Shown here piece by piece: positions 17,369-47,974 of a stretch of DNA of 47,974 nt. A model generated the notes under the pieces. The model was not told the DNA's origin, did no database searches, and worked only from the letters and a program-made list of their open reading frames with translations. The DNA lies in IMG/VR virus record IMGVR_UViG_3300045947_000044, positions 1-47,974 of that record, one strand, 5' to 3'. Within the stretch, counting starts at the first letter, position 1. Every line of letters starts with the position of its first letter. Source of the DNA: a virus. The position numbers and the translations under genes are program-made.

Positions 17369-17839
17369 ATGAGCTACGACGCGACGACGACGCCTTCGTC
17401 TGGTGACGACACGCAACTCGCGGACTACACGCGCCTCCGCGATAACGACAAGTCCCTCGCGGGCTCTGGGTCGTCGCACGACCTCGGCGGGTCGCTGAAC
17501 AAGTTCGTCGAGGATACCTCCTTCGTCGACCTGCCGGACGGCTGGGATCTGGAGATTGACGGGACGCAACTCGGCGGCCGGACGGTGAAGCTTGAGTTCA
17601 ACGTCATCGGCGAAACAGGGACCGCGGTCACAGTGAACGTGCGGCTCTTCAACATTACGGACGCGGGCGCGGTGGCGTCCTCGGATACTGCGGTCGTCAA
17701 TCCAGGCACAACGCGGACGCGCGGGATCTCGAGTGCGCTGACGCTCCCGACGGCGGCGAAGCGATACAAGGCGCAAATCAAGGGCTCGGTCGGCGCGGCT
17801 GCGAAGGTCGCCGCGCGTGCGCGGGTGATTATCACATGA
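17369..17839 (+). CDS. Small tail structural protein
   Basis: 156 aa, beta-sandwich-like: GRTVKLEFNVIGETGTAVTV and a C-terminal AKRYKAQIKGSVGAAAKVAA. The N-terminus is Ser/Thr/Asp-rich and probably flexible. It sits between the hub and the S74 fibre, with its stop overlapping the fibre start (ATGA). It may be a fibre adaptor or a carbohydrate-binding tip protein. No family is recognised with certainty. Confidence 0.6.
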   Translation: MSYDATTTPSSGDDTQLADYTRLRDNDKSLAGSGSSHDLGGSLNKFVEDTSFVDLPDGWDLEIDGTQLGGRTVKLEFNVIGETGTAVTVNVRLFNITDAGAVASSDTAVVNPGTTRTRGISSALTLPTAAKRYKAQIKGSVGAAAKVAARARVIIT

Positions 17840-18996
17840 AGAAGCCTCTCATTCTGGCTGCCGTGCTCTCGTGCGTGGTCGCGGCGGCGCTCGTCGCGCA
17901 GACGATCACGGACGTCCATCTCGGGAAGGTCCGGATCAACTCGACGGCCTCGGACGCGCTCTGCGTCGGGAGCTCCGGCGGATCCTCGCCGACGTGTACG
18001 GGCGGGATCAAGGCGGATGATGCCGTGTTCGGGAATACGGTGGCGATCGGCACGTCGGCGACCGTGGCGAGTTGGGTCTCGCTGTCGTCAGGGGTGATCC
18101 GTGTCTCGAACGGGAGCACACAGGGGGTGCTGCAAGCCTTCGACGCGTCCTACCGGCCGCTGTTGATCGACGGCTCGACCCTCAATTTCTACATCAGCGG
18201 CGCGGAGAAGGGGCGGATGCACGCCTCTGGCGGCTTCTCCTGGGGCGACACGACAGATCCGGGAAGCACCAACTTTCGCGTTGCCGGCCAGCTCCGTCCG
18301 GCGGATGGATCGGTGTCCGCTCCAGCGTATAGCTTCGGCTCGGATACAAACACCGGCGTGTATTCAATTTCCGGAGACCTCCTCGGTTTCGCAATCGGTG
18401 GAATCGAGGGCGTTCGCATCGGGAAGACTGGGACCGGGAATCCCTACATCTCGATCAATCCGGCCGCGTGGGGAACCGGGGCGGTGAGCGGTGGCTACCT
18501 GTCTCTCGGGAGGAATACCTCCGGGAATGGCGCTCCCGGTGTCATTGCGTACGGCGATCAATCGGGCACGTTTTGGTACTCGTGGGCTGATACGTCTGGC
18601 AACCTCCGGATTTCGAGCGGCGGGACCTATCCAGAGGAGGACGGTACGCCCTCTGAGACCTCCGGGACCGTCGTTGGCACGCAGACGTCAACGCGGGATA
18701 CGAAAAACTTGCTCGGCGCGTTCACGGACTATCGCGGCGCGCTCGACCTGATCACGCAAGTCCCGATCTACCGGTTCACGTACAAGAGCGGCGCCTACGG
18801 CGGAACGATCTTCACGGGCATCATCGCCGATGAACTGCCGGTCGTGATGATGGACCCGGATCCCGCGCATCCGGAGGGCCGATCGTTCTCGCCGGTCTCG
18901 GCCTTCGGCTACACGGCCGCGGCGATCAAGGCGCTTCAGGCTGAGATCGAAGAACTGCGCGCGGAAGTCCGCGACCTGAAAGCGAGGCAGCGATGA
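17836..18996 (+). CDS. Tail fibre with C-terminal S74 chaperone domain and an N-terminal signal peptide
   Basis: 386 aa. The C-terminal about 110 residues match the peptidase S74 intramolecular chaperone: TQTSTRDTKNLLGAF (Ser in STRDTK is the expected cleavage nucleophile), a conserved FTGIIADELP, then AIKALQAEIEELRAEVRDLK coiled coil. The middle is a Gly/Ser-rich beta-helix-like shaft. The start MKKPLILAAVLSCVVAAALVAQ is a textbook Sec signal peptide, which is odd for a virion protein made in the cytoplasm. The fibre trimer likely recognises the host. The signal could also be a relic of a host-derived secreted S74 protein. Confidence 0.82.
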   Translation: MKKPLILAAVLSCVVAAALVAQTITDVHLGKVRINSTASDALCVGSSGGSSPTCTGGIKADDAVFGNTVAIGTSATVASWVSLSSGVIRVSNGSTQGVLQAFDASYRPLLIDGSTLNFYISGAEKGRMHASGGFSWGDTTDPGSTNFRVAGQLRPADGSVSAPAYSFGSDTNTGVYSISGDLLGFAIGGIEGVRIGKTGTGNPYISINPAAWGTGAVSGGYLSLGRNTSGNGAPGVIAYGDQSGTFWYSWADTSGNLRISSGGTYPEEDGTPSETSGTVVGTQTSTRDTKNLLGAFTDYRGALDLITQVPIYRFTYKSGAYGGTIFTGIIADELPVVMMDPDPAHPEGRSFSPVSAFGYTAAAIKALQAEIEELRAEVRDLKARQR

Positions 18997-24008: not shown

Positions 24009-24401
24009 TCAGCGTCCAGGCGGCAACCATCCGCCGTCGCGACAGGTCCAGTCCGGCCCCGGCTGAACGGTCGAGCACGTGCCGGCGGGCGGGTTCGGGT
24101 TCGGGTTCGGGACGACGAACACCGGGATCGGAACCTGCCCTTCCTTTCCCAGGTCGTGCACGTTGAAGTAGCGTCGAGCGGTGACGCTGCCATCTCCGCA
24201 TGTGAAGAACACGATCAGCGTCTTGTCGTACACAATCGGGGCTGAGCTCGACACGAACCCGCCGGGGCAGGCGCGATCCAGGGCCGGCAGGCGCCGGTCG
24301 GTGTAGGCCGCGAAGATGTCAAAGACAAACGTCTGCGCGGCGAGGCCGCCGGCGCACACCACGAGCAAGCACGCAGCGACGGCGAGGAACAGGCGCTTCA
24401 T
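24009..24401 (-). CDS. Secreted lysogenic cargo protein
   Basis: 130 aa, start at the complement of 24401 with GGGAGG upstream. A Sec signal peptide (MKRLFLAVAACLLVVCAGGL, cut near AAQ) is followed by about 85 exported residues and a Pro/Asn-rich hinge (PNPNPNPPAG). The end CSTVQPGPDWTCRDGGWLPP is a motif I associate with secreted Acidobacteriota proteins. The gene lies between attP and the convergent late genes. A role in altering the lysogen's surface is an inference. Confidence 0.72.
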   Translation of the reverse strand: MKRLFLAVAACLLVVCAGGLAAQTFVFDIFAAYTDRRLPALDRACPGGFVSSSAPIVYDKTLIVFFTCGDGSVTARRYFNVHDLGKEGQVPIPVFVVPNPNPNPPAGTCSTVQPGPDWTCRDGGWLPPGR

Positions 24402-24614: not shown

Positions 24615-25889
24615 TCAACGATCCGCCGCTCTCGCAGGAGAGCGGCGAGTTTGCTTCGACATTTTCACGATCCGAGACGGACGTTCCACAGATTTTCCCA
24701 CAGGTCGCTTGATGACATCCGCGACGGGCATCCGGGCGCCGAGCGCCTCGAGCGGGGCCGTCTCATCGGCCGCGACGAGGTGTGTGTATATCTGGGTCGT
24801 CGTCAGGTCAGCGTGTCCCATCAGCCGCGCGCGGAGCGCCTCCGGGAGGCCCATGCGCGCGAGCTCGGTCGCCATCGTGTGCCGGAGCGAATGAAACGTG
24901 ACGCCCTTCGCTCGGCCCCACAGGAGCGCCGGCGCGACGGGCTTGCCCGTCGCCTCCGACTGGCGCTTCGCGATCGCGCCCGCGGCGGCCTGGACGGCGT
25001 GCTTCAGGGCGGTCTTGATGTCGTCGACGTGCTTGCCGCGGTAGTGCACCACGTATCGCCCGCGGCGGTGCGCCTGCGCGGTCTCGAGCACGGCCCGGAG
25101 TTCCTTCGACACGTTCACGACGAGTGGGAGGCCGGTCTGTCGATCGGTCTTGTGGTCGGGGTCGACGATCTGTGTCAGTGACTCGTCGACGTGCTCGCCC
25201 CACTTCAGGTCGAGGATGTTCCGGAGGCGGAGCTTCGGGGCGAGCGCGCCGATCCCGAGGGCGATCCCGACGTGCGCCGGCGCTTGGGTGATGATCTCGC
25301 GGAGCTGCTCCAGGGTGAAGGTCCGGATCCGCTTCGGGACGCGATCGCGGATCCCGCGCTCGAAGGGGTTCTCGCGGACCTGGCTCCGCTTCCGGTGCGT
25401 CGGCATCAGCCCGACCCGATAGAGCGCGCTGCACGCCGAGCGGTAGGCATTCCGCCGGCTGCCGCTCAACTTCCGCGCGTCCATCCAGAGTTCGAACTTC
25501 TCCAGCCATTCCGGATCGGCGATCGGGTCGCCGAGTCGGAGGTTGTGATACGGCGCCGGCTCGTCGACGGGCTCCTCCTTCGTCGGCCGCCGGCCCCAGA
25601 ACGCGAGGATCATCTTCAGGTTGATCTTGAACTGTTCCGGGCGCTTCAACTTCTTGCGCTTGACGGCGTGTGTGTAGGTCGCGCCGGCCCATTCGGTGAA
25701 GGTGGGCGTGTCCTCGGGCCCGGCCGGGTCTAGGCCGGCTTTCCGGCGCCTGAGCTTCGCGCGGAGCGCGGCTTCGAAGGCGTCGGCGTCGGCCTCGGTC
25801 GTGACGAACGTCGACCCCGTATGCCGCTGGCCGAAGAGCCAGAAGTCATAGCGGTACGTCACGCAGTCCCGCGGGCGAAAGACGGTCAC
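24615..25889 (-). CDS. int: Tyrosine integrase
   Basis: 424 aa, GTG start at 25889 with GGAG five bases before it and a GTGA overlap with the upstream gene. The central core-binding domain is at about residues 80-190 (FTEWAGATYTHAVKRKKLKR onwards). The catalytic domain holds the first Arg region (APKLRLRNILDLKW), FHSLRH with His333 and Arg336, MGHADL with His359, and the nucleophile Tyr368 (TTTQIYTH). The C-terminal tail is basic. It recombines attP with the host tRNA-Lys(CUU) gene. Its stop lies 52 bases from the attP core. Confidence 0.94.
   Translation of the reverse strand: MTVFRPRDCVTYRYDFWLFGQRHTGSTFVTTEADADAFEAALRAKLRRRKAGLDPAGPEDTPTFTEWAGATYTHAVKRKKLKRPEQFKINLKMILAFWGRRPTKEEPVDEPAPYHNLRLGDPIADPEWLEKFELWMDARKLSGSRRNAYRSACSALYRVGLMPTHRKRSQVRENPFERGIRDRVPKRIRTFTLEQLREIITQAPAHVGIALGIGALAPKLRLRNILDLKWGEHVDESLTQIVDPDHKTDRQTGLPLVVNVSKELRAVLETAQAHRRGRYVVHYRGKHVDDIKTALKHAVQAAAGAIAKRQSEATGKPVAPALLWGRAKGVTFHSLRHTMATELARMGLPEALRARLMGHADLTTTQIYTHLVAADETAPLEALGARMPVADVIKRPVGKSVERPSRIVKMSKQTRRSPARAADR
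24624..24647 (-). terminator. Ten-base-pair hairpin at the 3' end of the integrase gene
   Basis: CGCCGCTCTC (24624-24633) pairs perfectly with GAGAGCGGCG (24638-24647) around a GCAG loop. It lies within the last codons of the integrase gene. No U-tract follows on the minus strand, so intrinsic termination is uncertain. It may protect the int message or affect attP structure. Confidence 0.4.
24683..24703. promoter_or_regulatory. Right arm-type integrase sites (GTTCCACAG and TTCCCACAG)
   Basis: GTTCCACAG (24683-24691) and TTCCCACAG (24695-24703) match the left-arm GTCCCACAG at eight of nine positions each. They lie inside the 3' end of int, so the arm overlaps coding sequence. Together with the left pair they bracket the attP core. 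Confidence 0.5.
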
Positions 25890-26149
25890 GCGAGCTCCGG
25901 ACGTGTCAGGTGTCGCAGGCGTGGCCCGTCTGGCGGAGCGGCGCTGTCGAACACGCGCGCGTTGGTGCGGACATCGTCGGCGACAGTTCGCGTCCACCGA
26001 CGGTCCGCGAGGATGGCGACGGCGTGCTCCTCGGCCTCCCGCCGCGAGCTCGCGCTTCGGACGAAGTACGGCCCGTCGTCCATCCGCTGGCCCCGATACC
26101 CGAAGACGAAGAAGAGACCGGTCGGCTGGCCACCGTTGATGATTGTCAT
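25886..26149 (-). CDS. Small protein upstream of integrase
   Basis: 87 aa from ATG 26149 (MTIINGGQPTGLFFVFGYRG). It looks like a compact alpha-beta protein, with YFVRSASSRREAEEHAVAIL suggesting a helix with a double Arg. The stop overlaps the integrase GTG, so the two are co-translated; a recombination-directionality or int-control role is possible but unproven. The longer reading from 26230 would overlap the neighbour gene and is unlikely. Confidence 0.6.
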   Translation of the reverse strand: MTIINGGQPTGLFFVFGYRGQRMDDGPYFVRSASSRREAEEHAVAILADRRWTRTVADDVRTNARVFDSAAPPDGPRLRHLTRPELA

Positions 26150-26154
26150 CCGTT

Positions 26155-27570
26155 TTACCTGCCGAGCCAGAACCCGTACTTTCGACGGTTTAGTTCGCGG
26201 TTGTTCTGAAGTTCCCCGAACGACTGCCACCGCTGCAGCGCGTTGGTCCTCAGCGACGTCAGCGACGAGACTCGCGTCCAGGTTCCGCAGTCGCTATCGC
26301 TACTGAAGCCGACGTCAGTCGCCGAGATGACGACGGCCTGCTGGCCAGCGCCAGAGACGAAGTCGTTCGCGATGATGCTGTCGAGTGTGCCTCGGAAGTC
26401 GCGGAGCCGCTCCCAGTAGCAGCCTGCTTGCGCGTTGGTCGTGTAGATCCCGGGTGTGATTTGACCGCCCACCAACCACATGCCCCCCGGGATGACTGTT
26501 TGCAGGCCCTTCAGCGGTGTGTTGAACCAGGTCCCGCAGTCCGCGTCCGTCTGGAACGCAAGATCCGTCGGCAAGATGTCGACGATCGTCTGCGCCGCGG
26601 CGAATCCTATGAAGTTATTGGCGATGATGTCGTTCAGGCTGCCGCTCAAGCCCGACTGACGCTCCCAGTAACAACCGCTCGCAGGGATGCTGTAGTACCG
26701 GCCCGCGGCGATCTCGCTGCCCACTCGCCATTGACCCGCGCCAAACGTCGTATTCGGGCCGCCGTTCGCGACGGTGAAAAACCGGCTGCCGAGGCCCTGC
26801 GTGTTGCCTCGGTTGTCGGTGGCCACCCAGAAGATCGAATGCACGCCATTAGTGAGTTTCGTCGTGTCGATCTGGAAGATGCCGATCGCGCCACTGGTGT
26901 TTGCGAGGCCAGGAAAGAGCCCGGCCACGTCCGGTCGAAAGTGACCATACGATGGATTCCCACGCGGGATGCTATCGATGTAGACCGTGATGGTTGAGCC
27001 GTTGGTCGGAATCATCCCCGGTTGCGGCGTCAAGGCCCAACCGAAGTTGATGATCGTTCCGCTGACGGTCTGGCCTTGCGCAGGCGTATCGATTGTGCCG
27101 AATGGCAGGCGACTAGTGCTGTTGGTCGCCGTCACCGTCCGTTGGCCCAGTGTGACGGAGTTGCCTGAGTTGTCCGTGGCGATCGCGTGCAGGCGGAACG
27201 TGCCGTTGCCGCCGTTGGGCAGGAAGTTCGAGAGGAGCATGTAGCCCCACCCGGCCCGTGTGCTATTCGGATAGGTCGGGAACTTTGCTGCGACGTCCGG
27301 CCTGGCGCCGGCAACGAACGTCGCATCGCCGACAAAGACTAGAAGACCTGACACTTCGCCAACAACCGGATCTCGATACACCTTGACCGACACGATCCCG
27401 GAGTTGTCGAGCGCCCATCCCGTGACGGCGACCTCCCCCGCTATCCCTACGCCGTCCGAAGGTGAATCGAACGAGCCGAAGGGTGGGCCCACGGCTTGAC
27501 CGTGTGTCGTGGTGTTGATGAGCACGAGGGACACGAGGAGGAGCATCCACCCGACCAGGCGACGGAGCAT
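26155..27570 (-). CDS. Secreted Ig-like surface protein with duplicated Cys modules (lysogenic cargo)
   Basis: 471 aa. A signal peptide (MLRRLVGWMLLLVSLVLINT, cut near HGQA) leads into two Ig-like domains: FGSFDSPSDGVGIAG with VTGWALDNSGIVSVKVYRDP, and FGTIDTPAQGQTVSG with NFGWALTPQPGMIP. The C-terminal half has two copies of a module: WRVGSEIAAGRYYSIP, SGCYWERQSGLSGSLNDI, DADCGTW; and MWLVGGQITPGIYTTN, AGCYWERLRDFRGTLDSI, DSDCGTW. GGGAAGGA precedes the ATG. Proteins with this Ig pattern are, to my knowledge, common in Acidobacteriota. It is probably made by the lysogen and alters its surface or blocks superinfection. Confidence 0.82.
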   Translation of the reverse strand: MLRRLVGWMLLLVSLVLINTTTHGQAVGPPFGSFDSPSDGVGIAGEVAVTGWALDNSGIVSVKVYRDPVVGEVSGLLVFVGDATFVAGARPDVAAKFPTYPNSTRAGWGYMLLSNFLPNGGNGTFRLHAIATDNSGNSVTLGQRTVTATNSTSRLPFGTIDTPAQGQTVSGTIINFGWALTPQPGMIPTNGSTITVYIDSIPRGNPSYGHFRPDVAGLFPGLANTSGAIGIFQIDTTKLTNGVHSIFWVATDNRGNTQGLGSRFFTVANGGPNTTFGAGQWRVGSEIAAGRYYSIPASGCYWERQSGLSGSLNDIIANNFIGFAAAQTIVDILPTDLAFQTDADCGTWFNTPLKGLQTVIPGGMWLVGGQITPGIYTTNAQAGCYWERLRDFRGTLDSIIANDFVSGAGQQAVVISATDVGFSSDSDCGTWTRVSSLTSLRTNALQRWQSFGELQNNRELNRRKYGFWLGR

Positions 27571-28290: not shown

Positions 28291-28602
28291 TTTCTTGCGT
28301 CGCATCTTGACGGCGGCGCCCATCATGTCACCCATCGCGAGCGACCAGTCGCAGACCCATTCCTTGTCCGGTTCTTCCGGCTGCGCCGCCACGATGCCGA
28401 CCAGCGCGCACCCGGCGTAGTACTCGTCGAGCGTGATCTGCAGCGTCGCTGGGACCGCGGGCGGACGGGGGTTGACCAAGAGCGTGCGCCGTCGGGATCG
28501 TTCCCATCCTGAGATTGGCGTTTCATTACGATCGCCGTCTCCACGGGCCGGTGCGCGGCGTCGAACGATGCCAGGCGTGCGGGCCTTTGATGGGCGTTTC
28601 AT
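28285..28602 (-). CDS. Small phage protein of the LDEYYAGCAL type
   Basis: 105 aa if started at 28602. The C-terminal half (LQITLDEYYAGCALVGIVAA; KEWVCDWSLAMGDMMGAAVK) resembles a small family often seen in phage early regions, function unknown. The N-terminal about 40 residues are Arg-rich with weak third-position GC and overlap the displaced repressor C-terminus, so the real start may be TTG 28479 (64 aa) or elsewhere. The gene is on the repressor transcript. Confidence 0.55.
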   Translation of the reverse strand: MKRPSKARTPGIVRRRAPARGDGDRNETPISGWERSRRRTLLVNPRPPAVPATLQITLDEYYAGCALVGIVAAQPEEPDKEWVCDWSLAMGDMMGAAVKMRRKKR

Positions 28603-28709
28603 CGGTGGCCCGCCTTTCGCTTGGGATGTCCAGGCCGCTGTCCGCGATCCTTTCGATGGCTCGCATCTTCTCGGGGAACAGGAGCGCGAGTTCCTGGAGC
28701 TTGTCCCCC
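28526..28709 (-). pseudogene. Displaced C-terminal segment of the HTH repressor
   Basis: In the frame one base ahead of the repressor, the minus strand reads LGDKLQELALLFPEKMRAIE then RIADSGLDIPSERRATDETP with strong G/C third positions, ending at 28526. The repressor's own frame over the same bases has poor codon usage and looks non-coding. Deleting one G from the run of five (complement of 28705-28709) joins the two into a smooth 220-aa protein. See the repressor entry. Confidence 0.65.
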
Positions 28710-29189
28710 AAAGCTCTCTTCGGCTTCTCGGGCGAAGTGGTCGAGAGCGTCCTTGACGACGTTGCCGAATCCTCGAAGGTCGTTGCTAAAGGCTGTGAGT
28801 GTACGAGCCGGATCCTGGTCACCGATGGCCCCTCCCTTGGTTCGGTCTTGATGAGCTGGAGGGGTCTCTTTTACACCAGAGCCAGGCTGATCGCGTATGG
28901 TTTTTTTACTGGGAATTTTTCCGCGCCGCAAGATGTCGTAGTCCGCATCGACGCCAACAACAAGATCCTCGATGGTCGCGCGAAGCCGTCTCGCTAGTTT
29001 CAGCAGCGTCTCCCCTTCCGGCACGCCGCCCTTTTCGTTGATCCAATTGCTGAACATCGACGGGGTGACGTCGAGTTCGGCAGCGATCTCCTTTTTCTTC
29101 TTTCCTGGGAACCGGGTAGAACAGAGAGCCTTCAGGTTGCGGCCGAACGCCGCTGGGTCAAGCACACCGGGACGATAGCCCGTCTCCAT
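28599..29189 (-). CDS. HTH repressor (CI-like), apparently frameshifted
   Basis: 196 aa as read, from ATG 29189. Residues 10-75 are an XRE-type HTH (KEIAAELDVTPSMFSNWINE) followed by GETLLKLARRLRATIEDLVV. A charged linker and a helix (GFGNVVKDALDHFAREAEES) follow, then the frame is lost at a five-G run. No LexA-type autoprotease (Ser/Lys) domain is visible, so induction may not be RecA-dependent. It is divergent from a Cro-like gene across an operator region, the standard immunity layout. The ribosome site is weak (GCGAAAAAAT). The frame loss may be real, programmed or a sequencing error. Confidence 0.75.
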   Translation of the reverse strand: METGYRPGVLDPAAFGRNLKALCSTRFPGKKKKEIAAELDVTPSMFSNWINEKGGVPEGETLLKLARRLRATIEDLVVGVDADYDILRRGKIPSKKTIRDQPGSGVKETPPAHQDRTKGGAIGDQDPARTLTAFSNDLRGFGNVVKDALDHFAREAEESFGGQAPGTRAPVPREDASHRKDRGQRPGHPKRKAGHR

Positions 29190-29221
29190 ATTTTTTCGCA
29201 AGCAAGAATTTTCCGTAAGCA

Positions 29222-29240
29222 CAAGACCCGACACCACTTG
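29222..29240. promoter_or_regulatory. Operator 1, CAAG-N11-CTTG
   Basis: CAAG (29222-29225) and CTTG (29237-29240) are separated by 11 bases; the wider arms GCACAAG and CTTGCGC match in six of seven positions. The site lies 33 bases before the repressor start, so binding would affect repressor transcription. Confidence 0.55.
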
Positions 29241-29249
29241 CGCCTGACC

Positions 29250-29259
29250 GCAATATTGC
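29250..29259. promoter_or_regulatory. Perfect palindrome GCAATATTGC midway between operators
   Basis: GCAATATTGC is a perfect ten-base palindrome located between the two CAAG-N11-CTTG sites. It may be a third binding site for repressor or Cro, or part of the promoters. Confidence 0.4.
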
Positions 29260-29284
29260 TCCGTGTGTTCAAGCACAAATTTAT
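29256..29284 (+). promoter_or_regulatory. Candidate early rightward promoter
   Basis: TTGCTC (29256-29261), 17-base spacer, ATTTAT (29279-29284) is a reasonable -35/-10 pair placed just before the Cro-like gene. Operator 2 (29270-29288) covers the -10, which fits repression. The match to consensus is partial and host promoter rules are unknown. Confidence 0.35.
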
Positions 29285-29288
29285 CTTG
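29270..29288. promoter_or_regulatory. Operator 2, CAAG-N11-CTTG
   Basis: CAAG (29270-29273) and CTTG (29285-29288) again with exactly 11 bases between, 48 bases centre-to-centre from operator 1. The AT-rich middle overlaps the candidate -10 of the rightward promoter. Confidence 0.55.
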
Positions 29289-29312
29289 CAACACATGAAC
29301 TAGGGGTGTAGC

Positions 29313-29594
29313 TTGTGTTTCGACGCAATGCCGAAGCCGCTCAGTCCGGAACAAATCGACGCGATGCGAGCCGTCCCGCTCGGAGAAATGCCGAACAAGC
29401 TCCGGATCGCGATTGCGCTCGCGAAGGTGAAGCAGGCGGAGGTCTGCGAGGAGACCGGCCTGACGCCTTCGATGGTCAGTAACTTCGTGCTCGGCAAATA
29501 CACGACGTTGACCATCGACACGGCGCGGAAGCTCGCGGAGTTCTTCGGTTGCCAGATTGAGGATTTGTTCCCGGCGCGTGAGGCCGTCGCCTGA
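29313..29594 (+). CDS. Cro-like HTH regulator
   Basis: 93 aa from TTG 29313, which has AGGGG at 29302-29306 in good position; the ATG at 29328 lacks a clear ribosome site. The XRE/Cro HTH spans NKLRIAIALAKVKQAEVCEE, TGLTPSMVSNFVLGKY and TIDTARKLAEFFGCQIEDLF. It is divergent from the repressor and likely opens the lytic programme by binding the same operators. No dimerisation domain beyond the HTH is visible, as usual for Cro. Confidence 0.82.
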   Translation: MCFDAMPKPLSPEQIDAMRAVPLGEMPNKLRIAIALAKVKQAEVCEETGLTPSMVSNFVLGKYTTLTIDTARKLAEFFGCQIEDLFPAREAVA

Positions 29595-29684
29595 TGTCGT
29601 GTTCATCATGCCGACGAGTCTCGCCGACGACCGTGTCTCTCGTGAACTAGGCAGTTCTCAAGAGAGGAAAAAGCGAAGGCGCGT

Positions 29685-35381: not shown

Positions 35382-35842
35382 AAGACGACTTCGAACGCCG
35401 ATCGAAGCACTGGCAGGACGGCGACATTGTGACGACCGTCCTCCGATCCTCCGGTGAGAAGGTCACGGCGGTCGTGAAACGGACCTATCCGCGGAAGTCG
35501 GACGGCAAGACGTTCGTCCGGGTGCAGTACCTGAGCGGCCCGAAACACGGGACGACGGACTGGGCCGGCCCGATCTGGACCTTCGGCAAGGGCGCGCACA
35601 AGCTTACGTGTCTCGATCCGGGCTGCAACCAGGTGTTCTACACGGACGACCACACGAAGGACTTCTGCCCCTGCTGCGAGCGCACGATGGAGCCGCGCAC
35701 GGGATCGCGGACGAAGGTCGAGCAGCGGAGGGACACGACGCGCCAGGTCGTCACGCCGGTCGCTCGGGTGTCGCGTCCGCCGATCGATGAAGAGGCCGCC
35801 GCTCAGCAGCGGGCGATCGACGACGCGGAGTCGAGGTTCTGA
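35378..35842 (+). CDS. Zinc-ribbon protein
   Basis: 154 aa from ATG 35378. Beta-rich N-terminus (GEKVTAVVKRTYPRKSDGKT), then LTCLDPGCNQVF and DFCPCCERTM forming a C4 zinc ribbon at about residues 75-105. The tail is basic. Could bind DNA in the recombination/modification module. TGATG overlap with the methyltransferase. Confidence 0.6.
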   Translation: MKDDFERRSKHWQDGDIVTTVLRSSGEKVTAVVKRTYPRKSDGKTFVRVQYLSGPKHGTTDWAGPIWTFGKGAHKLTCLDPGCNQVFYTDDHTKDFCPCCERTMEPRTGSRTKVEQRRDTTRQVVTPVARVSRPPIDEEAAAQQRAIDDAESRF

Positions 35843-37773
35843 TGTCAACGCGCGCGCCGCTCATTCGGCTCTACCAGGACGAAGCCGTGGCGGACCTGTT
35901 CGCCGGCGGCGGCGGAGCCTCGACCGGGATCGAGATGGTGCTCGGCCGTTCACCGGACATCGCGATCAACCACGACGCCGACGCGCTCGCGATGCACGAG
36001 CAGAACCACCCGGGAACCGAGCACCTGAAGGGCGACGTCTTCAACTACGACCCTGACACCGTCGCGACGACGCACGCCGGCGGCCGGCGGTTTGCGTTCG
36101 CGTGGTTCTCGCCGGACTGCACGTACCACTCGAAAGCCAAGGGCGGGAAGCCGTTCCGCGACAAACGGAAGTCGGTCCGGATCCGCGGGCTCGCGTGGGT
36201 GATGGTGCATTGGGCCGAGTCGACGATCGCCAAGCCCCGGTGCATCTTCATGGAGAACGTCGAGGAGCTTGAGGACTGGGGGCCGCTGATCGAAGTCGGC
36301 CGCGGCGAGTGGAAGCCCGATCCGACAAAGCGCGGCACCTACTGGAAGCGCCTTGTTCGGCGGTTGAAGAACGCCGGCTACGACCGGATCGAGTGGCGCA
36401 AGCTCCGGGCGTCGCACTATGGGGCGCCCACGTCGCGGCAGCGGATGGTGATGATCGCCAGGTGCGATGGCCTGCCGATCGTCTGGCCGGAGCCGACGCA
36501 TGGACCGAAACGAACCCGGCCGTTCCGGACGGCGGCCGAGTGCATCGACTTCAACCTGCCCGTCCCGTCGATCTTCCTGACGCCTGAAGAAGCGAAGGAG
36601 TGGGGGCGGTTCTACGGGGTGCCGGCACCGAAGCGCCCGCTCGCGGACAACACGCTGCGGCGCGTCGCGCGCGGCGTCGTCCGCTACGTCATCGAGGCGG
36701 TCGACCCATTCATCATCCCGATCGGCGAGAACGGCATCATCGCGCCTTACGTCGTGCCGCCGCGTGGCTACCGGCAGGACGAAAACATGGTCGACGCGAT
36801 CGGGGCTCCGCTACGGACGATCAAGGCCACCGACGCGCACGTCTTCGGGCTGGCGACGCCGTTCCTCGTCAAGCACTACGGTGGGGACCGGGGCCAGAAC
36901 GCCGGCAGGTTCTCTCAGCTCGACGACCCAATGGGCACGGTGACGACGTCGGACCATCACGCGCTCGTGGTGCCGACGCTCATCAACACCCGGAACGGCG
37001 AACGCCACGGGCGGCACGGGGAGCAGGCGCCGCGCGTGCTCGACATTCAGGCGCCATATCCGACCATCACGGCGCTCGGGAGTCAGGGCGCGCTGGTCGC
37101 GGCGTTCCTCGCGAAGCACAACGCCGGGCACGAGGCCACCGGACAGCATCCGGAGCGGCCGCTCGACACCGTCACGACCCGCGACACCAAGGCGCTTGTC
37201 ACGGCGCATCTGACACGGTTCAACACCGAGCGCACCGAGGGGAGCGTTCGCGGGCAAGGGATGCGCGAACCGCTGACGACGCTCGACACCTCGAACCGCT
37301 TCGGGCTCGTGACGTCGAACCTCGTGAAGCTCCGCGGCGGGCTGCTCGACCACGTCCACACATCGCAGGACGTGCGGGAGCCGGTCCCGACTCTGACGGC
37401 CGGCGGCACGCACCTGGCGGAGGTCAGGGCCTTCCTCGTGAAGTTCTTCGGGACCGGCGTCGCGCGCTCGCTCTGGAACCCGCTCGACACCGTGACGACG
37501 AAGGATCGCGTTGGGCTCGTCATCGTGACGATCGCCGGTGAAGAGTACGTGCTCGTCGACATCGGGATGCGGATGCTGACGCCCCGCGAGCTGTTTCTGG
37601 CGCAGGGCTTCCCGCGCTCCTACGTCATCGACCGAGGCAAGCGCGACGGCGTCACCCGGAAGTTCACGAAGGGCGTTCAGACGCGGCTCGTCGGGAACTC
37701 CGTGCCGCCGCATCTGGCCGCCGCGGTCATCAGCGCGAACCTCGGCTCAAACGTCATGGAGGCGATCGCCTGA
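35842..37773 (+). CDS. DNA cytosine-5 methyltransferase with repeat-built target domain
   Basis: 643 aa. Motif I DLFAGGGGAS (Asp18), motif IV with catalytic Cys93 in FSPDCTYHSKAKGG (not the usual PPC), ENV at 138-140, a QRMVMIAR motif VIII, and motif IX/X (TRLVGNSVPPHLAAAV). The variable region, about residues 300-570, contains seven related segments such as APLRTIKATDAHV, DPMGTVTTSDHH, RPLDTVTTRDTKALVTAHL and NPLDTVTTKDRVGLVIVTI. The enzyme likely protects phage DNA from host restriction. Target sequence cannot be read from the protein. Confidence 0.92.
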   Translation: MSTRAPLIRLYQDEAVADLFAGGGGASTGIEMVLGRSPDIAINHDADALAMHEQNHPGTEHLKGDVFNYDPDTVATTHAGGRRFAFAWFSPDCTYHSKAKGGKPFRDKRKSVRIRGLAWVMVHWAESTIAKPRCIFMENVEELEDWGPLIEVGRGEWKPDPTKRGTYWKRLVRRLKNAGYDRIEWRKLRASHYGAPTSRQRMVMIARCDGLPIVWPEPTHGPKRTRPFRTAAECIDFNLPVPSIFLTPEEAKEWGRFYGVPAPKRPLADNTLRRVARGVVRYVIEAVDPFIIPIGENGIIAPYVVPPRGYRQDENMVDAIGAPLRTIKATDAHVFGLATPFLVKHYGGDRGQNAGRFSQLDDPMGTVTTSDHHALVVPTLINTRNGERHGRHGEQAPRVLDIQAPYPTITALGSQGALVAAFLAKHNAGHEATGQHPERPLDTVTTRDTKALVTAHLTRFNTERTEGSVRGQGMREPLTTLDTSNRFGLVTSNLVKLRGGLLDHVHTSQDVREPVPTLTAGGTHLAEVRAFLVKFFGTGVARSLWNPLDTVTTKDRVGLVIVTIAGEEYVLVDIGMRMLTPRELFLAQGFPRSYVIDRGKRDGVTRKFTKGVQTRLVGNSVPPHLAAAVISANLGSNVMEAIA

Positions 37774-42027: not shown

Positions 42028-42342
42028 GTGAAAACCCGCGAGTTGGGCCGTGCGGATCTCGCCCAGTTGGCGGCGATCTATGTGGCGCTCCCACTGGCGC
42101 GACGTGACGCCTGGCTGTCGAGGCTGACGCCGGAGGTGCGGATCCGCATTGCCAGCCGAGCCCGGCACGGGGTGACGTACACCGGATCCGGCCAGCAGAC
42201 GGCCGAGGCGTATCTGGCCCCGATCCATCAGGGGGCAGTGCGGGCAGCCGCGACACGGCGAGCGCGTCTGACGCAGGCCGATCGGGCGCGGGAGATTGAC
42301 GACGCCATGGCCGCCAAACTGAACGAAAGGAAACACGCGTGA
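42028..42342 (+). CDS. First gene of the adsorption cassette
   Basis: 104 aa, GTG start. Helical and basic (ADLAQLAAIYVALPLARRDA, VRAAATRRARLTQADRAREI). It is coupled to the next gene (GTGA). Its role could be regulatory or assembly-related. Unrecognised. Confidence 0.55.
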   Translation: MKTRELGRADLAQLAAIYVALPLARRDAWLSRLTPEVRIRIASRARHGVTYTGSGQQTAEAYLAPIHQGAVRAAATRRARLTQADRAREIDDAMAAKLNERKHA

Positions 42343-42821
42343 AGAAGTACTACGCTCTGGTGAGTCTGTGTCTGCTCCTGCCTGTGGTGGCGTCGGCGCA
42401 GACGTCCATTGACGCGGGCAAGGCGTTCAAAGTCATGCTGACGCACGACGGCGTGAACGCCTCCGAGTATCAGATCACCCTGGATCCCCCCGGCACGACA
42501 GCCCCGAACATTGTGCAGACGGTGCCAGCCTCGGCTCGAGATACCGCTACGGGGGATGTCACCTTTGACGTGCCGGCGCAGACGTCGGCGGGCAGTTGGA
42601 CGGTCACGGGCTGTGCCCGCAACGTGGATCCGCTGAAGGTGGCCCAGACGGCGACGGCGTGTACCACGGCGCTGGCCTTCTCGGTGGTGATCCCGAAGAT
42701 GCCGAGCCCCACGCTGCCGACGATCCGGATCTCGGGCACGCTCACCATGGCCAATGGCCAGGTGCAGCCGTTCACGGCCACGGTGGACGCTATCACGCTG
42801 GCGCTGCCGGCGGTGAAGTAA
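42339..42821 (+). CDS. Secreted beta-rich protein in the adsorption cassette
   Basis: 160 aa, GTG overlapping the previous stop. A Sec signal (MKKYYALVSLCLLLPVVASA, cut before QTS) is followed by a beta-sandwich-like body (FKVMLTHDGVNASEYQITLD; SAGSWTVTGCARNVDPLKVA) of Ig-like appearance with two Cys. As a putative structural-module protein it should not need export, so it may act in the periplasm or at the cell surface instead. Not recognised. Confidence 0.65.
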   Translation: MKKYYALVSLCLLLPVVASAQTSIDAGKAFKVMLTHDGVNASEYQITLDPPGTTAPNIVQTVPASARDTATGDVTFDVPAQTSAGSWTVTGCARNVDPLKVAQTATACTTALAFSVVIPKMPSPTLPTIRISGTLTMANGQVQPFTATVDAITLALPAVK

Positions 42822-43370
42822 GTGCGCCACGCTCACCGAACCCTGCTCGTTCTCGCGCTCGCCCTGCTGGTGCTGGCCCCGCTCCATGCGCGTGGCGTCG
42901 TGCTCTCCACGGCCCAGCGCAACGCGCTCAAGGCTGACATTCTCGCCAACTCCGACGCGCTGGCGATCTACACCGTCGGCAACCTCGAGGCTTTAGCGGC
43001 GCTCTACAACGCCAATGCCTCGCCGGCCTTCACGGTCTGGAAGTCCAACGTCAGCATCAATGCCGTCGGGAAAGCCTTCAACGGCTCCGAGCTCGCCGGC
43101 CTGACGTCGGCCAACCAGACACGGCTGCAAACCATCGCGTTGTATCTGCAGGACGGCGTGAACCCGTCCATTGCCAGCAACCGCGCGTTCTTCGATGACG
43201 TGTTCAGCGGGGCGAGTGGCGCCAACACGCGGGCGGCGCTGCTGGCGCTCTGGAAGCGGGCCGCGACACGCCTCGAGAAGCTGTTCGCGACGGGCACGGG
43301 TTCAGATGCCTCGCCGGGGCTCTTGGTGGTCGAGGGCTCGATCTCTCCCGATGATCTGATCGGGCTGTAG
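42822..43370 (+). CDS. Phage structural-type protein with signal peptide
   Basis: 182 aa, GTG start directly after the previous TAA. A signal-like N-terminus (TLLVLALALLVLAPLHARGV) is joined to a body I recognise from phage tail-region proteins: LSTAQRNALKADILANSDAL, FTVWKSNVSINAVGKAFNGS, then RAALLALWKRAATRLEKLFA and TGTGSDASPGLLVVEG. Such proteins normally have no signal. Family function is not established. The fusion with a leader is notable. Confidence 0.65.
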   Translation: MRHAHRTLLVLALALLVLAPLHARGVVLSTAQRNALKADILANSDALAIYTVGNLEALAALYNANASPAFTVWKSNVSINAVGKAFNGSELAGLTSANQTRLQTIALYLQDGVNPSIASNRAFFDDVFSGASGANTRAALLALWKRAATRLEKLFATGTGSDASPGLLVVEGSISPDDLIGL

Positions 43371-43374
43371 ACGA

Positions 43375-43857
43375 ATGGCCGACTATCCCACCAAGCAATT
43401 CGTCGGCTCGGCGGTCACGGTCATCAGCACCAGCACGGACATTGCCTCCGGCAACTTCTCTGGTGCGCCGGCCTCGACGTTCTCCAACGACGATGCGACC
43501 TACCCGAACGCGCCCTATGCCAATGCAATGGCGGAGTTCCCGGATTGGGCGGCGGCTCCCGTCGCGGGCACAGTGGTCGAGCTCTGGGGGCTGCTGAAGG
43601 ACACCGACGGGACGGACGACGACACGGACGCCCCGTCAGGCTCGGCGCCCGGTGGCGCGCGGTATTTCGGATCCTGGGTGATTGCGGCGGCCGACGCCCT
43701 CCAGCGTCGGACGATCGTGATCTCGCTGGCGGGGATCGGCAACGGCATCGACGTCGATTTCTACATCCGCAACGGCACGGCCCAGAACATGAACAACGAC
43801 GGCGGCACCAGTGCGGTTGTGAAGATCACGCCCTGGACCTACGGGATCACGGTGTAA
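43375..43857 (+). CDS. Putative virion structural protein
   Basis: 160 aa. Beta-rich: KQFVGSAVTVISTSTDIASG, AAPVAGTVVELWGLLKDTDG, DVDFYIRNGTAQNMNNDGGT. Asp/Gly-rich turns suggest a lectin-like or tail-tip fold. It precedes the LamG-like gene with no gap. Function inferred from context. Confidence 0.6.
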   Translation: MADYPTKQFVGSAVTVISTSTDIASGNFSGAPASTFSNDDATYPNAPYANAMAEFPDWAAAPVAGTVVELWGLLKDTDGTDDDTDAPSGSAPGGARYFGSWVIAAADALQRRTIVISLAGIGNGIDVDFYIRNGTAQNMNNDGGTSAVVKITPWTYGITV

Positions 43858-44718
43858 ATGGCGGTTATCTCTGTTCCATTCGTCCCACAGGTGACGCCCC
43901 TTCGGCCGGCGCAGCCGTCTGCTGGGGTGAAGCTGGAGGCGCAGTGGCACGACGTCTGGGATCAGACGCGCGGGCTGCTGTTCTACTGGAACGATCCGAT
44001 CGCCTCAGTGAACCAGATCCGGCCGCTGACGCAACTCCCTCGGCTCGCGAGCACGGTCACGAACGGCACGCAGTTCGGTCTCGGGCTGAACTGCACGGCC
44101 AACAACCGGGGCGCTCGCGTGGCCTCGCCGGCGTATCTCAACGGCCTGCTCCCGGTGTCCTTGATGGCGGTCTGGTGGCAGGTGGCGGCGCCGGCCAACT
44201 CGTCAGAAATCTTCTGTGTCACGTACACGAACACGGACACGACGCCGTTCATGCAATACAAGATCGGCTACACCAACACGGGCGTCTACGACGGCGGATG
44301 GAATGACGGCGCGACTCTGCGGCACGTCACGGGCTCCGGAGCCCCCGCGAACACCCGGCTGCATGTGGGCGTGTTCACGATCGTCAACGGGGCACAGTTC
44401 CTGTACCTCGACGGCGTGCAGGCGGCGTCGGACACTCGAGCGGCGAGCGCCGCCATTTCTGTGACGCCGCAGATCGGGATCGGCTGTGCGTCGTCGGACA
44501 TCACCACGCGCAATCCAGGCTGTCATGTGCTCGAGGCGCGGATTTACAACCGGGCGCTGACGGCGTTTGAGGCGCGCGAGTACTCGCGGCGGTGGGCTGA
44601 ACTGGCGAACCTGCCGATCCCGGAACTCTCGGTGGCGCTGTCGATCGGCTCTGGAGGGGTCACGTATCCGCGTCTCGAGCGTCGGCACGGGCGCGGCGTG
44701 TTGCGAGGAGCGGCGTAG
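43858..44718 (+). CDS. LamG/concanavalin-like lectin protein, probable receptor-binding
   Basis: 286 aa. The middle 200 residues match LamG-type lectin features: RLHVGVFTIVNGAQFLYLDG (strand with an exposed loop), then CHVLEARIYNRALTAFEARE, a hallmark LamG ending. An N-terminal Pro-rich linker and a C-terminal segment probably attach it to the tail. Likely binds host sugars. Start abuts the previous stop. Confidence 0.72.
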   Translation: MAVISVPFVPQVTPLRPAQPSAGVKLEAQWHDVWDQTRGLLFYWNDPIASVNQIRPLTQLPRLASTVTNGTQFGLGLNCTANNRGARVASPAYLNGLLPVSLMAVWWQVAAPANSSEIFCVTYTNTDTTPFMQYKIGYTNTGVYDGGWNDGATLRHVTGSGAPANTRLHVGVFTIVNGAQFLYLDGVQAASDTRAASAAISVTPQIGIGCASSDITTRNPGCHVLEARIYNRALTAFEAREYSRRWAELANLPIPELSVALSIGSGGVTYPRLERRHGRGVLRGAA

Positions 44719-44721
44719 GCC

Positions 44722-46077
44722 GTGAACTTCCTCAGCAAGTACGGCGTCGCCAGACACATTTACGTGCCGATCGTAAAGCGCGCGGTTGTTGATTTCGCGG
44801 TCGGCGCGGACTGGACCCCTGCCGCTGGGGATTGCAAAATATCCAAGGATGGCGGCGCGGCGGCGAACGTGACGAACCTGCCGACGGCGATCACGATGGG
44901 CAATACGGCGATGTGGGATTTCTCGCTGACCGCCACAGAGATGGAGGCCGCGCAGGTCGTCGTGATGGTCGCGGATTCGGCGACGAAGGTCGTCGAGGAT
45001 CAGTCGTTTCTCATTGAGACGTACGGGAACGCGAGCGGACAGCACGCCGTCGACCTCGACGATGGGGTCCGTGCGGGACTGACGGCGCTCCCAAACGCGG
45101 CCGCAGAAGCCGCCGGCGGGCTCTACACGCGCGGGAGCGGCGCCGGCCAGATCAACCAGCCGGCGAACGGCATGATCGACGCGAACGTCGTGCGGAACGC
45201 GGGATCGGCCATCGTCGCGTCGGGCGGGCGCCAGGAAGTCAACGTCTCCCACTTTGGCGGCAGCGCGGGCACGTTTGCGTCAGGGCGGCCGGAGGTCAAC
45301 ACGACGCATTGGCGCGGGACCGCGGCCCCAGCGGAGCACACGGCCGGCTATCCCATCGTGACGATCAAGGACGGGACTGGAACGGGCGAGCTCGCGACGA
45401 CTTCAGGGGCGATCGACACGGTCACGACCTTGACGAATGCGCCGCCGGACTCGGCGGGCGTGACGACCCTGCTCTCGCGGATCCCGTCGGCGCTCTTCTC
45501 GGGGATCACGTCGCTCGCGCAGTGGCTCGGGCTGCTGGCTGGGAAGCAGGTCGGGAACTCGACGGCGCGCACGGAGATCCGGGCGACTGGCGCTGGGAGC
45601 GGGACGTTCGACGAGACGACCGACTCGCTCGAGGCCACGCGGGACAACATCGGCACGACGGGCGCGGCGCTCTCGCTGGCGAAGGGCGCGCAGATCACGG
45701 GGTTCAATGACCTCTCGGCCGCTCAGGTGAACACGGAAGCGGACACGGCGCTCGCCGACGTGGGCGTGACGACGACGGTCACGGGCCGGATCGACGTGGC
45801 GGTGAGTTCCAGAGCGACGCCGGCTCAGGTGAACGCGGAAGTCCTCGACGTGCTGAACGTGGACACGTTCGCCGAGCCTGGTCAGGAAGCGCCGCCGGCG
45901 ACGACGACGCTCGTGAAAAAAATTGGGTGGTTGTACAAGGCGTTCAGGAACCGAGTCACTCAGGACGCGACCACGATGAAGATTTACGCGGATGACGGGA
46001 CGACCGTCGACGCGAAAGCGACGGTCAGTGATAACGGGACTACGTACGACCGGAACGAGGTCGTTTCAGGGCCATGA
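44722..46077 (+). CDS. Large tail-associated protein
   Basis: 451 aa, GTG start. The N-terminus (FAVGADWTPAAGDCKISKDG, MWDFSLTATEMEAAQVVVMV) is a beta domain common in tail-associated proteins. The middle is a Thr/Ala/Gly stalk. The end (AQVNAEVLDVLNVDTFAEPG, KKIGWLYKAFRNRVTQDATT, MKIYADDGTTVDAKATVSDN) is a pattern I associate with environmental phages. Its place after a lectin gene suggests fibre or tip. Stop overlaps the next ATG. Confidence 0.68.
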   Translation: MNFLSKYGVARHIYVPIVKRAVVDFAVGADWTPAAGDCKISKDGGAAANVTNLPTAITMGNTAMWDFSLTATEMEAAQVVVMVADSATKVVEDQSFLIETYGNASGQHAVDLDDGVRAGLTALPNAAAEAAGGLYTRGSGAGQINQPANGMIDANVVRNAGSAIVASGGRQEVNVSHFGGSAGTFASGRPEVNTTHWRGTAAPAEHTAGYPIVTIKDGTGTGELATTSGAIDTVTTLTNAPPDSAGVTTLLSRIPSALFSGITSLAQWLGLLAGKQVGNSTARTEIRATGAGSGTFDETTDSLEATRDNIGTTGAALSLAKGAQITGFNDLSAAQVNTEADTALADVGVTTTVTGRIDVAVSSRATPAQVNAEVLDVLNVDTFAEPGQEAPPATTTLVKKIGWLYKAFRNRVTQDATTMKIYADDGTTVDAKATVSDNGTTYDRNEVVSGP

Positions 46078-46466
46078 ACCTGGACACGCGATCGAAGCGG
46101 GCGTCGTCGTGCGGGATCCTCCTGGCGTTCCTGCTGCATCCGGTCGCGCCGGACGGGGCGATCGACGCGACCGACCGGCCGCACATTGCCTGGAGTTATT
46201 CGGGTGTGTCGTCGGGGATTACCCCGGCGACCTCGATGCTCGCGGGCGGGATCGTACGGACCCCGATCGTCACGGGCGGGGTCATCACTGGCACGCCGAT
46301 CGCCGGTGGCATCGTGACGCCGCAGCCGACGGCGGGCGGGGTCGTGGCGCAGATGGTCGCGGGGGGCATCGTGACGCCGACACCAGTCGCGGGCGGCATT
46401 GTGACGGGAACACCGATCGCGGGCGGCATCCTGACCCCGACGCCGACGGCAGACGGAGCCTACTGA
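46074..46466 (+). CDS. Repeat-built protein (GGIVTxTP units)
   Basis: 130 aa. After about 58 residues of non-repeat sequence come about seven units of 9-11 residues: AGGIVRTPIV, TGGVITGTPIA, GGIVTPQPTA, GGVVAQMVA, GGIVTPTPVA, GGIVTGTPIA, GGILTPTPTA. Such repeats could form a narrow beta-solenoid or collagen-like fibre. The DNA repeats about every 30 bases, so copy number can change by recombination. Coupled by ATGA and TGATG. Confidence 0.65.
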   Translation: MNLDTRSKRASSCGILLAFLLHPVAPDGAIDATDRPHIAWSYSGVSSGITPATSMLAGGIVRTPIVTGGVITGTPIAGGIVTPQPTAGGVVAQMVAGGIVTPTPVAGGIVTGTPIAGGILTPTPTADGAY

Positions 46467-46876
46467 TGGCCGAAGAGACGAACTACACCGACGACGATCA
46501 CTGGTTCATCGGGGAAGACAAACGGCATCGGATCGGCGGCGGATCCGGGAAGCACATCCTCGTCCATCCAGGCGGCGGCGGCGCGGCGGTCGTCGACATC
46601 TCCGGATGGCTGATCCACAACGCGCAGCGGGTCAGCGTGGACGACGCGAACGCGGTCTTCACGATCCCGACGGACGGCGGGACGATCACGATCGGCGGGG
46701 TCTACAACGCGAGCCAGGGCAGTAACACGCAGTACGTCGAATCGTTCATGCCGGACAACCTGACGGGCCTTCACACGCCCGGGACGAAGGCGTGGGCCTT
46801 CAAGCGGATGGACGCCGACCAGGAGACGGTCTTCGCCTTCGGGACGGTCCCGTGGCGCAATGCGGCGGTTCACTGA
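46466..46876 (+). CDS. Putative structural protein, beta-rich
   Basis: 136 aa from ATG 46466. EDKRHRIGGGSGKHILVHPG, VVDISGWLIHNAQRVSVDDA and GGTITIGGVYNASQGSNTQY give alternating strands with Gly turns. Probably a tail or fibre accessory. Not recognised. Confidence 0.6.
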   Translation: MAEETNYTDDDHWFIGEDKRHRIGGGSGKHILVHPGGGGAAVVDISGWLIHNAQRVSVDDANAVFTIPTDGGTITIGGVYNASQGSNTQYVESFMPDNLTGLHTPGTKAWAFKRMDADQETVFAFGTVPWRNAAVH

Positions 46877-46877
46877 G

Positions 46878-47207
46878 ATGCAGACGATCCAGCCAGGCGA
46901 GCGCGTCGCTGTTCCTCTCGAGGGGGTCGTCCTCCGTCTACCCTCCGACGTCTGGTGGACACCTGTGAAGGTGAAGCCGCACGAGGCGGTCTCGGTTGGG
47001 GTCGGAGTGACGAAGCTCACGGAGACGGACAGTCGGCGGCCGAACATCACGGTCACGGTGGAGCAGAGCGAGGAGGCCGGCACGCTCCTCCGGGTACAGG
47101 GCGCACCAGGCGAGGCCGGGGGCGTGATCATCTCCTACGAGTACCCCAAGGGCTTTTGGACGATGAAGGGGTTCAAGGTGGAGATCGTAGGGGCGGGCCA
47201 GGCATGA
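46878..47207 (+). CDS. Beta-rich protein, paralogue A
   Basis: 109 aa from ATG 46878. QTIQPGERVAVPLEGVVLRL then PSDVWWTPVKVKPHEAVSVG parallels the gene at 47386 (RTVNPGEIVTLPAEGAVLGL, PFDLWCAPFGVEPIGARVDI). The two probably arose by duplication. Short secreted-like protein 47204 lies between. Function unknown; context suggests virion surface. Confidence 0.6.
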   Translation: MQTIQPGERVAVPLEGVVLRLPSDVWWTPVKVKPHEAVSVGVGVTKLTETDSRRPNITVTVEQSEEAGTLLRVQGAPGEAGGVIISYEYPKGFWTMKGFKVEIVGAGQA

Positions 47208-47386
47208 CCAGGCGAGCCGTGCTGTCGCTGCTCTGCGGGGCCGGGGCTCGGTCTGCGCCGACTCCTCCTGTTGCACTGAAGCCGGTCGCCGTCGTGGTGG
47301 ATGGCGACCTGATGACAACCGCGTGGGCGAACGCGGTCGCCGAGGCCATCAACGCGCTCGTGCAGAGGTCAGGTGGGGCGCACTGA
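47204..47386 (+). CDS. Small protein with signal-like start
   Basis: 60 aa from ATG 47204. MTRRAVLSLLCGAGARSAPT resembles a short export signal with Arg pair and Cys. AVVVDGDLMTTAWANAVAEA may be the mature part. It overlaps both flanking genes. Only weakly supported as secreted. Confidence 0.5.
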   Translation: MTRRAVLSLLCGAGARSAPTPPVALKPVAVVVDGDLMTTAWANAVAEAINALVQRSGGAH

Positions 47387-47757
47387 TGCGCACGGTAAAC
47401 CCTGGGGAAATCGTGACGCTCCCCGCCGAAGGCGCCGTCCTCGGCCTGCCGTTCGATTTGTGGTGCGCCCCGTTCGGTGTGGAGCCCATCGGCGCGCGGG
47501 TAGACATCGAGGCGTCCGGGGTCAGGGCCTCGCTGGTGCAGCACGCCACAGGCCAGCGCGTGACCTTTGTACGGGTCGAGGGCGGGCGTCCAGGGCCAGT
47601 CTATTACGTGCACGTATCCTTCACGCCACGGAAGGGGCAGGCCACACGACAGACGTTCCCCGTACGCGTCGAAGGCTCACACGAGAACACTCCAGCGGAC
47701 ACGAGCGTCGCCGGCTGGCGCAAGCGGTTCGATGAACAACGCGAACAACGGGGATAG
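47386..47757 (+). CDS. Beta-rich protein, paralogue B
   Basis: 123 aa from ATG 47386, overlapping the previous TGA. The N-terminal half matches paralogue A. The remainder (RVTFVRVEGGRPGPVYYVHV; QTFPVRVEG) continues the beta fold and ends in a charged tail. It is the last gene before the packaging region. Confidence 0.6.
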   Translation: MRTVNPGEIVTLPAEGAVLGLPFDLWCAPFGVEPIGARVDIEASGVRASLVQHATGQRVTFVRVEGGRPGPVYYVHVSFTPRKGQATRQTFPVRVEGSHENTPADTSVAGWRKRFDEQREQRG

Positions 47758-47847: not shown

Positions 47848-47974
47848 GGTTGACGGTTGACTTTCAGAGGGTGACAGGTGAGCACGGCGGTTGACACTCC
47901 CGGATCGGGCTCGTTCGCGGACTACGCCAAGCATCGAGGCGTCAGTCGGAACGCGGTCTCGAAAGCCCTGAAGA
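47848..47974. repeat. Right copy of 127-bp terminal direct repeat
   Basis: Exact copy of bases 1-127. It should be trimmed to obtain the true circular map. Confidence 0.95.
47878..47974 (+). CDS. Terminase small subunit, duplicate 5' fragment
   Basis: The first 32 codons of the small terminase gene reappear here only because the contig end repeats the start. It is not a second gene. Confidence 0.9.
   Translation, partial: MSTAVDTPGSGSFADYAKHRGVSRNAVSKALK

Follow-up and report, generated by a model that had tools for sequence, protein, structure and literature searches.

What a tailed phage gains by placing genes for apparently secreted proteins inside a run of virion-type genes is the question raised by a block at positions 42028-47757 of the window, by which we mean the whole 47,974-nt stretch of viral DNA analysed here (IMG/VR record IMGVR_UViG_3300045947_000044). 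A sequence-only reading had described the block as eleven structural-like genes, including a lectin, a stalk protein and a repeat protein, and had proposed that they might specify an exported surface complex or receptor decoy expressed late.

The block directly precedes the terminase genes on a closed circle

The block consists of eleven consecutive plus-strand ORFs with a coding-like GC3 of 0.74-0.89, whose junctions overlap or leave no more than 5 nt. They are listed below with the two terminase genes.

42028-42342, + strand: ORF a, 104 aa, opens the run
42339-42821, + strand: ORF b, 160 aa, predicted Sec signal peptide, putatively secreted
42822-43370, + strand: ORF c, 182 aa, predicted Sec signal peptide (residues 1-23) followed by the domain of a phage-only family with the pattern LT.AQ...EKLFATGTG
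43375-43857, + strand: ORF d, 160 aa, beta-sandwich or jelly-roll-like, second gene of a triad
43858-44718, + strand: ORF e, 286 aa, LamG (concanavalin A-like) lectin, third gene of the triad
44722-46077, + strand: ORF f, 451 aa, stalk or fibre protein
46074-46466, + strand: ORF g, 130 aa, short repeats (AGGIVTPTPV units)
46466-46876, + strand: ORF h, 136 aa, possibly virion-type
46878-47207, + strand: ORF i, 109 aa, Ig-like adaptor, paralogue of k
47204-47386, + strand: ORF j, 60 aa, weak Tat/Sec-like N-terminus, then a fibre-type GDLMTTAWANAVAEAINAL motif
47386-47757, + strand: ORF k, 123 aa, weakly similar to the podophage fiber-tail adaptor Gp77 (PF23148)
31-642, + strand: TerS, 120 nt downstream of k across the circle junction
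639-2624, + strand: TerL of the lambda gpA type

Because the first and last 127 bases of the record are identical (1-127 = 47848-47974), the assembly represents a closed circle, and since its ends repeat, the block directly precedes TerS, TerL and the head genes. Its placement upstream of the terminase was therefore correct, the block ending 120 nt before TerS, but its supposed position on the far side of the genome is an artefact of where the circle was cut. All eleven ORFs were recovered, as were the stalk protein (44722-46077) and the repeat protein (46074-46466), which match their description. The lectin at 43858-44718 was likewise borne out, with a match to the carbohydrate- or receptor-binding domain Laminin_G_3 above the Pfam cut-off (E 2.9e-7). 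The term structural-like could not be upheld for 42028 and 47204, which are without relatives; ORF a also had no Pfam or PHROG match and no sign of a structural role.

The complete block was present in no other contig, and in the relatives search for whole-block conservation b and e gave none; only its two halves recur elsewhere. Conservation as a unit, which had been suggested as a check, was thus seen for the triad formed by c, d and a LamG protein and not for the block as a whole.

Protein c defines a phage-only family and a triad within head-gene clusters

The c family is marked by two signatures, LT.AQ close to the N-terminus and EKLFATGTG close to the C-terminus, and has 32 distinct members in IMG/VR, the window included. 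We found no clear match for c in cultured phages or PHROGs. Scanning GTDB contigs for the motif gave no copy either, nor did 297 genomes from the phylum of record L186, the last in a scan run without a positive control. By these searches c appears to be a phage-only, previously undescribed protein family. The predicted structure of c has a mean pLDDT of 89.9 and is mainly alpha-helical, with the N-terminal tag scored lower, and a fold search returned nothing at E <= 0.001 in the PDB or BFVD; on the model, the fold is apparently new.

The triad is conserved in about 25 otherwise unrelated uncultured phages, whose backbones are unrelated to each other, and lies mostly inside their head genes, in the TerL-portal, portal-MCP or MCP-connector interval (MCP, major capsid protein). 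The gene after c is of the d or d' type in 26 of the 30 loci with room for one, and usually encodes about 150-175 aa; homology between d and d' is unsupported (hhalign probability 2%). Protein d is predicted to be all-beta; its structural matches, to phage tail proteins, lectins and jelly rolls, are all weak. The third slot holds a LamG protein in 14 of 25 cases, window e among these. Searches of cultured phages with b, c, d and k gave no match.

In most of these relatives a portal, head protein, TerL or connector gene is adjacent. The portal gene lies just upstream of the triad in L017, L021, L022, L035 and L037, and the major head protein gene upstream of it in L015, L028 and L134. Elsewhere, the triad separates head genes from a head-tail adaptor (L031), or lies between TerL and the portal (L016), upstream of the portal (L023) or after TerL (L029), and d adjoins the portal in L127. 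The exception is L033, where c lies beyond the tail genes. The triad of the window itself is placed ahead of TerS. Since most c homologues lack a signal peptide and c travels with d and LamG genes, we regard c as a structural-module gene.

The export tag on c has been gained or lost repeatedly

Signal peptides were called by rule-based scoring, not SignalP, and 19 of 926 background genes (about 2%) passed. By this score the signal peptides previously noticed in 42339 (b) and 42822 (c) are both strong and of the Sec type, each an N-terminal signal peptide with a cleavage site, MKKYYALVSLCLLLPVVASA before QTS in b and MRHAHRTLLVLALALLVLAPLHA before RG in c; for c, comparison with homologues leads to the same result. 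The possible third signal peptide, at 47204, is doubtful, as this 60-aa product has only a weak Tat-like N-terminus.

Five of the 32 members of the c family carry the tag (the window, L015, L021, L022 and L035), a share far in excess of the roughly 2% among other genes (Fisher p 0.0009). The majority of the family has a stop codon in frame shortly before the gene, and the protein starts at or beside LT.AQ after a ribosome-binding site. In L015, L021, L022 and L035 c starts earlier, a ribosome-binding site precedes each signal-peptide start, and the predicted cleavage falls 0-1 residues ahead of the LT.AQ sequence. The predicted cleavage in window c falls 4 residues ahead of the point where untagged members begin, and its start is preceded by a weak ribosome-binding site only. 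An untagged form of window c from an internal start was also considered; there is a GTG at codon 27, but it lacks a good ribosome-binding site.

Parsimony on the c tree gives five changes of the tag, at least three of them forced by supported branches. Tagged L015 and untagged L019 are sisters, and their 85% DNA identity breaks off near the tag junction. The predicted export tag on c has, by these comparisons, been gained or lost repeatedly. Because c is single-copy in each of the eight records checked (five tagged), the window included, the tag replaces the cytosolic form instead of supplementing it. This pattern suggests that some phages may export a part of the virus particle from the cell. 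We found no description in the literature of signal-peptide-tagged structural-module proteins of this kind. The sisters L019 and L015 offer a natural comparison for the effect of exporting a structural-cluster protein.

The same data bear on the possibility that all eleven products are virion parts, their hydrophobic N-termini being either unused or used for export, with the products released by lysis and bound to finished particles outside. In favour of this explanation, tagged and untagged c genes share one position, following portal or head genes, and are single-copy, and a tail fibre of the phage bears a signal peptide as well:

17836-18996, + strand: tail-fibre protein, clear signal peptide, S74-like chaperone at the C-terminus (weak Pfam match)

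This S74-type fibre lies at the usual place for a tail fibre, and a search for its relatives gave one partial match only. The mature parts of the window's signal-peptide proteins contain 0, 2, 2, 4 and 4 cysteines (two in b), numbers that fit periplasmic disulfides. Against unused N-termini, the five signal peptides of c stop where the untagged proteins start, which suggests that they are used and cleaved, and we know of no Caudoviricetes appendage that is assembled via export. We consider it possible, but not probable, that all eleven products belong to the virion.

The second half of the block resembles fibre and adaptor genes

The N-terminal 110-160 aa or so of f are 68-85% identical to proteins in L002-L005, while the remainder is variable, and in L003 and L004 the proteins with this conserved N-terminus adjoin tail or other virion genes. 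Cultured phages gave two partial matches to f only. In L002, the f homologue is followed by a repeat protein and then by a clear Gp77 adaptor (PF23148, E 2.9e-26), with a signal-peptide fibronectin-III protein soon after this suite; L148 also holds a clear Gp77 member. The match of k itself to PF23148 (E 1.5e-4, 22.7 bits) is under the curated cut-off of 27, and the two Ig-like proteins i and k share 33% identity (blastp E 3e-12). Protein h has a weak relative (26%) in L041, a record that also holds a TerL relative.

The site next to TerS varies among relatives of the window's TerL. On the TerS side, L046 has large fibre-like proteins together with glycosyltransferases and L049 a repeat and Ig-like pair, and L186, L045, L057 and L058 have nothing block-like there and carry other, apparently early genes. 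Glycosyltransferase and nucleotide-sugar genes precede TerS in L046 (5637-9162) and are inserted between TerL and the portal in L049 (4021-10995).

These observations also address the earlier proposal that the whole block is given over to an exported surface complex or a receptor decoy. Two clear signal peptides and a lectin do occur in a single gene run. However, signal peptides are absent from d, e, f, h, i and k and from most c homologues, and in relatives most of the block is found among head genes: d and LamG homologues lie within head-gene clusters, and the f N-terminus is common to proteins beside tail or other virion genes (L003, L004). Export of the entire block is consequently very unlikely, and a receptor-masking or decoy role would be possible for c and b only.

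Small secreted neighbours and a temperate lifestyle

The mixing of virion-type genes with exported products, to which the sequence-only reading had drawn attention, does recur: beyond the five tagged c proteins, it is seen in L119, L025, L036 and L002. In the first three of these, small predicted secreted proteins lie beside the triad as b does in the window, b being presumably a small Ig-like secreted protein. As a class, small secreted neighbours of c are not significantly enriched (4/138 versus 5/223).

The phage is a siphophage, and its gene content marks it as temperate:

24615-25997: integrase (PHROG E 3e-27)
28599-29609: CI-like repressor

The window TerL is 63-65% identical to that of a Vicinamibacterales (Acidobacteriota) prophage, which has the window's head and tail genes in common. 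Between the integrase and repressor genes, 26155-27570 (- strand) encodes a secreted 471-aa protein with a signal peptide and a Big_7 Ig domain, relatives of which, at up to 60% identity, occur in 19 of 199 sampled genomes of the acidobacterial phylum; it is likely a host-derived lysogenic-conversion gene. From the kinship of TerL, head and tail genes to this prophage and the relatives of the 26155-27570 protein in the phylum, we infer that the host is probably an acidobacterium. A secreted 130-aa protein with four cysteines in its mature part is encoded next to the integrase (24009-24401, - strand) and has no family match.

A temperate phage with another secreted, host-type gene could alternatively carry c and b as morons for lysogenic conversion or superinfection exclusion that merely sit inside a structural operon. 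Lambda Lom provides a precedent: this signal-peptide protein is expressed in lysogens, and its gene lies between those for the tail spike and the tail fibre (PMC12309495). Only b fits this account well, given the association of c with d and LamG and the lack of a signal peptide in most c homologues, and we judge it unlikely for the pair.

Comparison with known systems and a proposed role

The lectin, the variable stalk with a conserved N-terminus, the Ig-like adaptors, the late structural setting and the variation between relatives are all shared with receptor-binding or tail-fibre and head-fibre cassettes. Unlike these, the window block lies before TerS and not after the tail genes, and holds the undescribed c family and two export-tagged products. 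Lambda lom and other signal-peptide outer-membrane proteins are similar in that a temperate phage encodes a signal-peptide protein within its structural region, but c is mainly an alpha-helical domain, not a beta-barrel, and its close relatives are untagged. T5 Llp and the Cor proteins of phi80 and N15 are small envelope-exported phage proteins that could block a receptor, as c and b might; in contrast to them, b and c lack a lipobox, their cleavage sites being without a cysteine, and gave neither a Pfam or PHROG match nor any sequence relation that we could find. T4 Hoc and phi29 gp8.5 are surface proteins encoded among head genes, a putative parallel to the c triad, although there is no sequence or fold match.

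We think it somewhat more probable than otherwise that the block is an accessory late virion-appendage cassette of a temperate siphophage, of which c and b would be exported while the rest would end up in particles. Such a cassette would join the widespread head-cluster triad to a stalk and adaptor suite (f, g, h, i and k). Proteins c and b, with their Sec signal peptides, would be exported to the periplasm, and d, e, f, g, h, i and k would stay cytosolic and most likely be built into particles as surface appendages aiding adsorption. Once exported, c and b could reach the host surface or receptor from the inner side and mask it against superinfection or progeny re-binding; alternatively, they may bind virions after lysis. 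A counterpoint is that the loss of c to the periplasm would be hard to explain if c were an essential virion part.

We advance more tentatively the broader idea that diverse phages switch single-copy c between intracellular and exported forms through gain and loss of the signal peptide precisely at the N-terminus, the exported form masking a receptor or decorating particles after lysis. If exported c does mask receptors or join particles after lysis, this would be an additional step in tailed-phage biology; to our knowledge, such a mode of virion maturation or self-exclusion has not been described for tailed phages. The analysis in any case defines an undescribed phage-only family and a conserved triad in the head-gene clusters of many uncultured phages.

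Other features of the window

PADLOC models gave no match to a known anti-phage defence system. By its translation, 35842-37773 (+ strand) encodes a putative DNA cytosine methyltransferase of 643 aa with an internally repetitive middle. Among the head genes, a single 668-aa ORF (4981-6987, + strand) fuses the prohead protease (S78) and the major capsid protein, and homologues of similar length occur in several of the TerL relatives.
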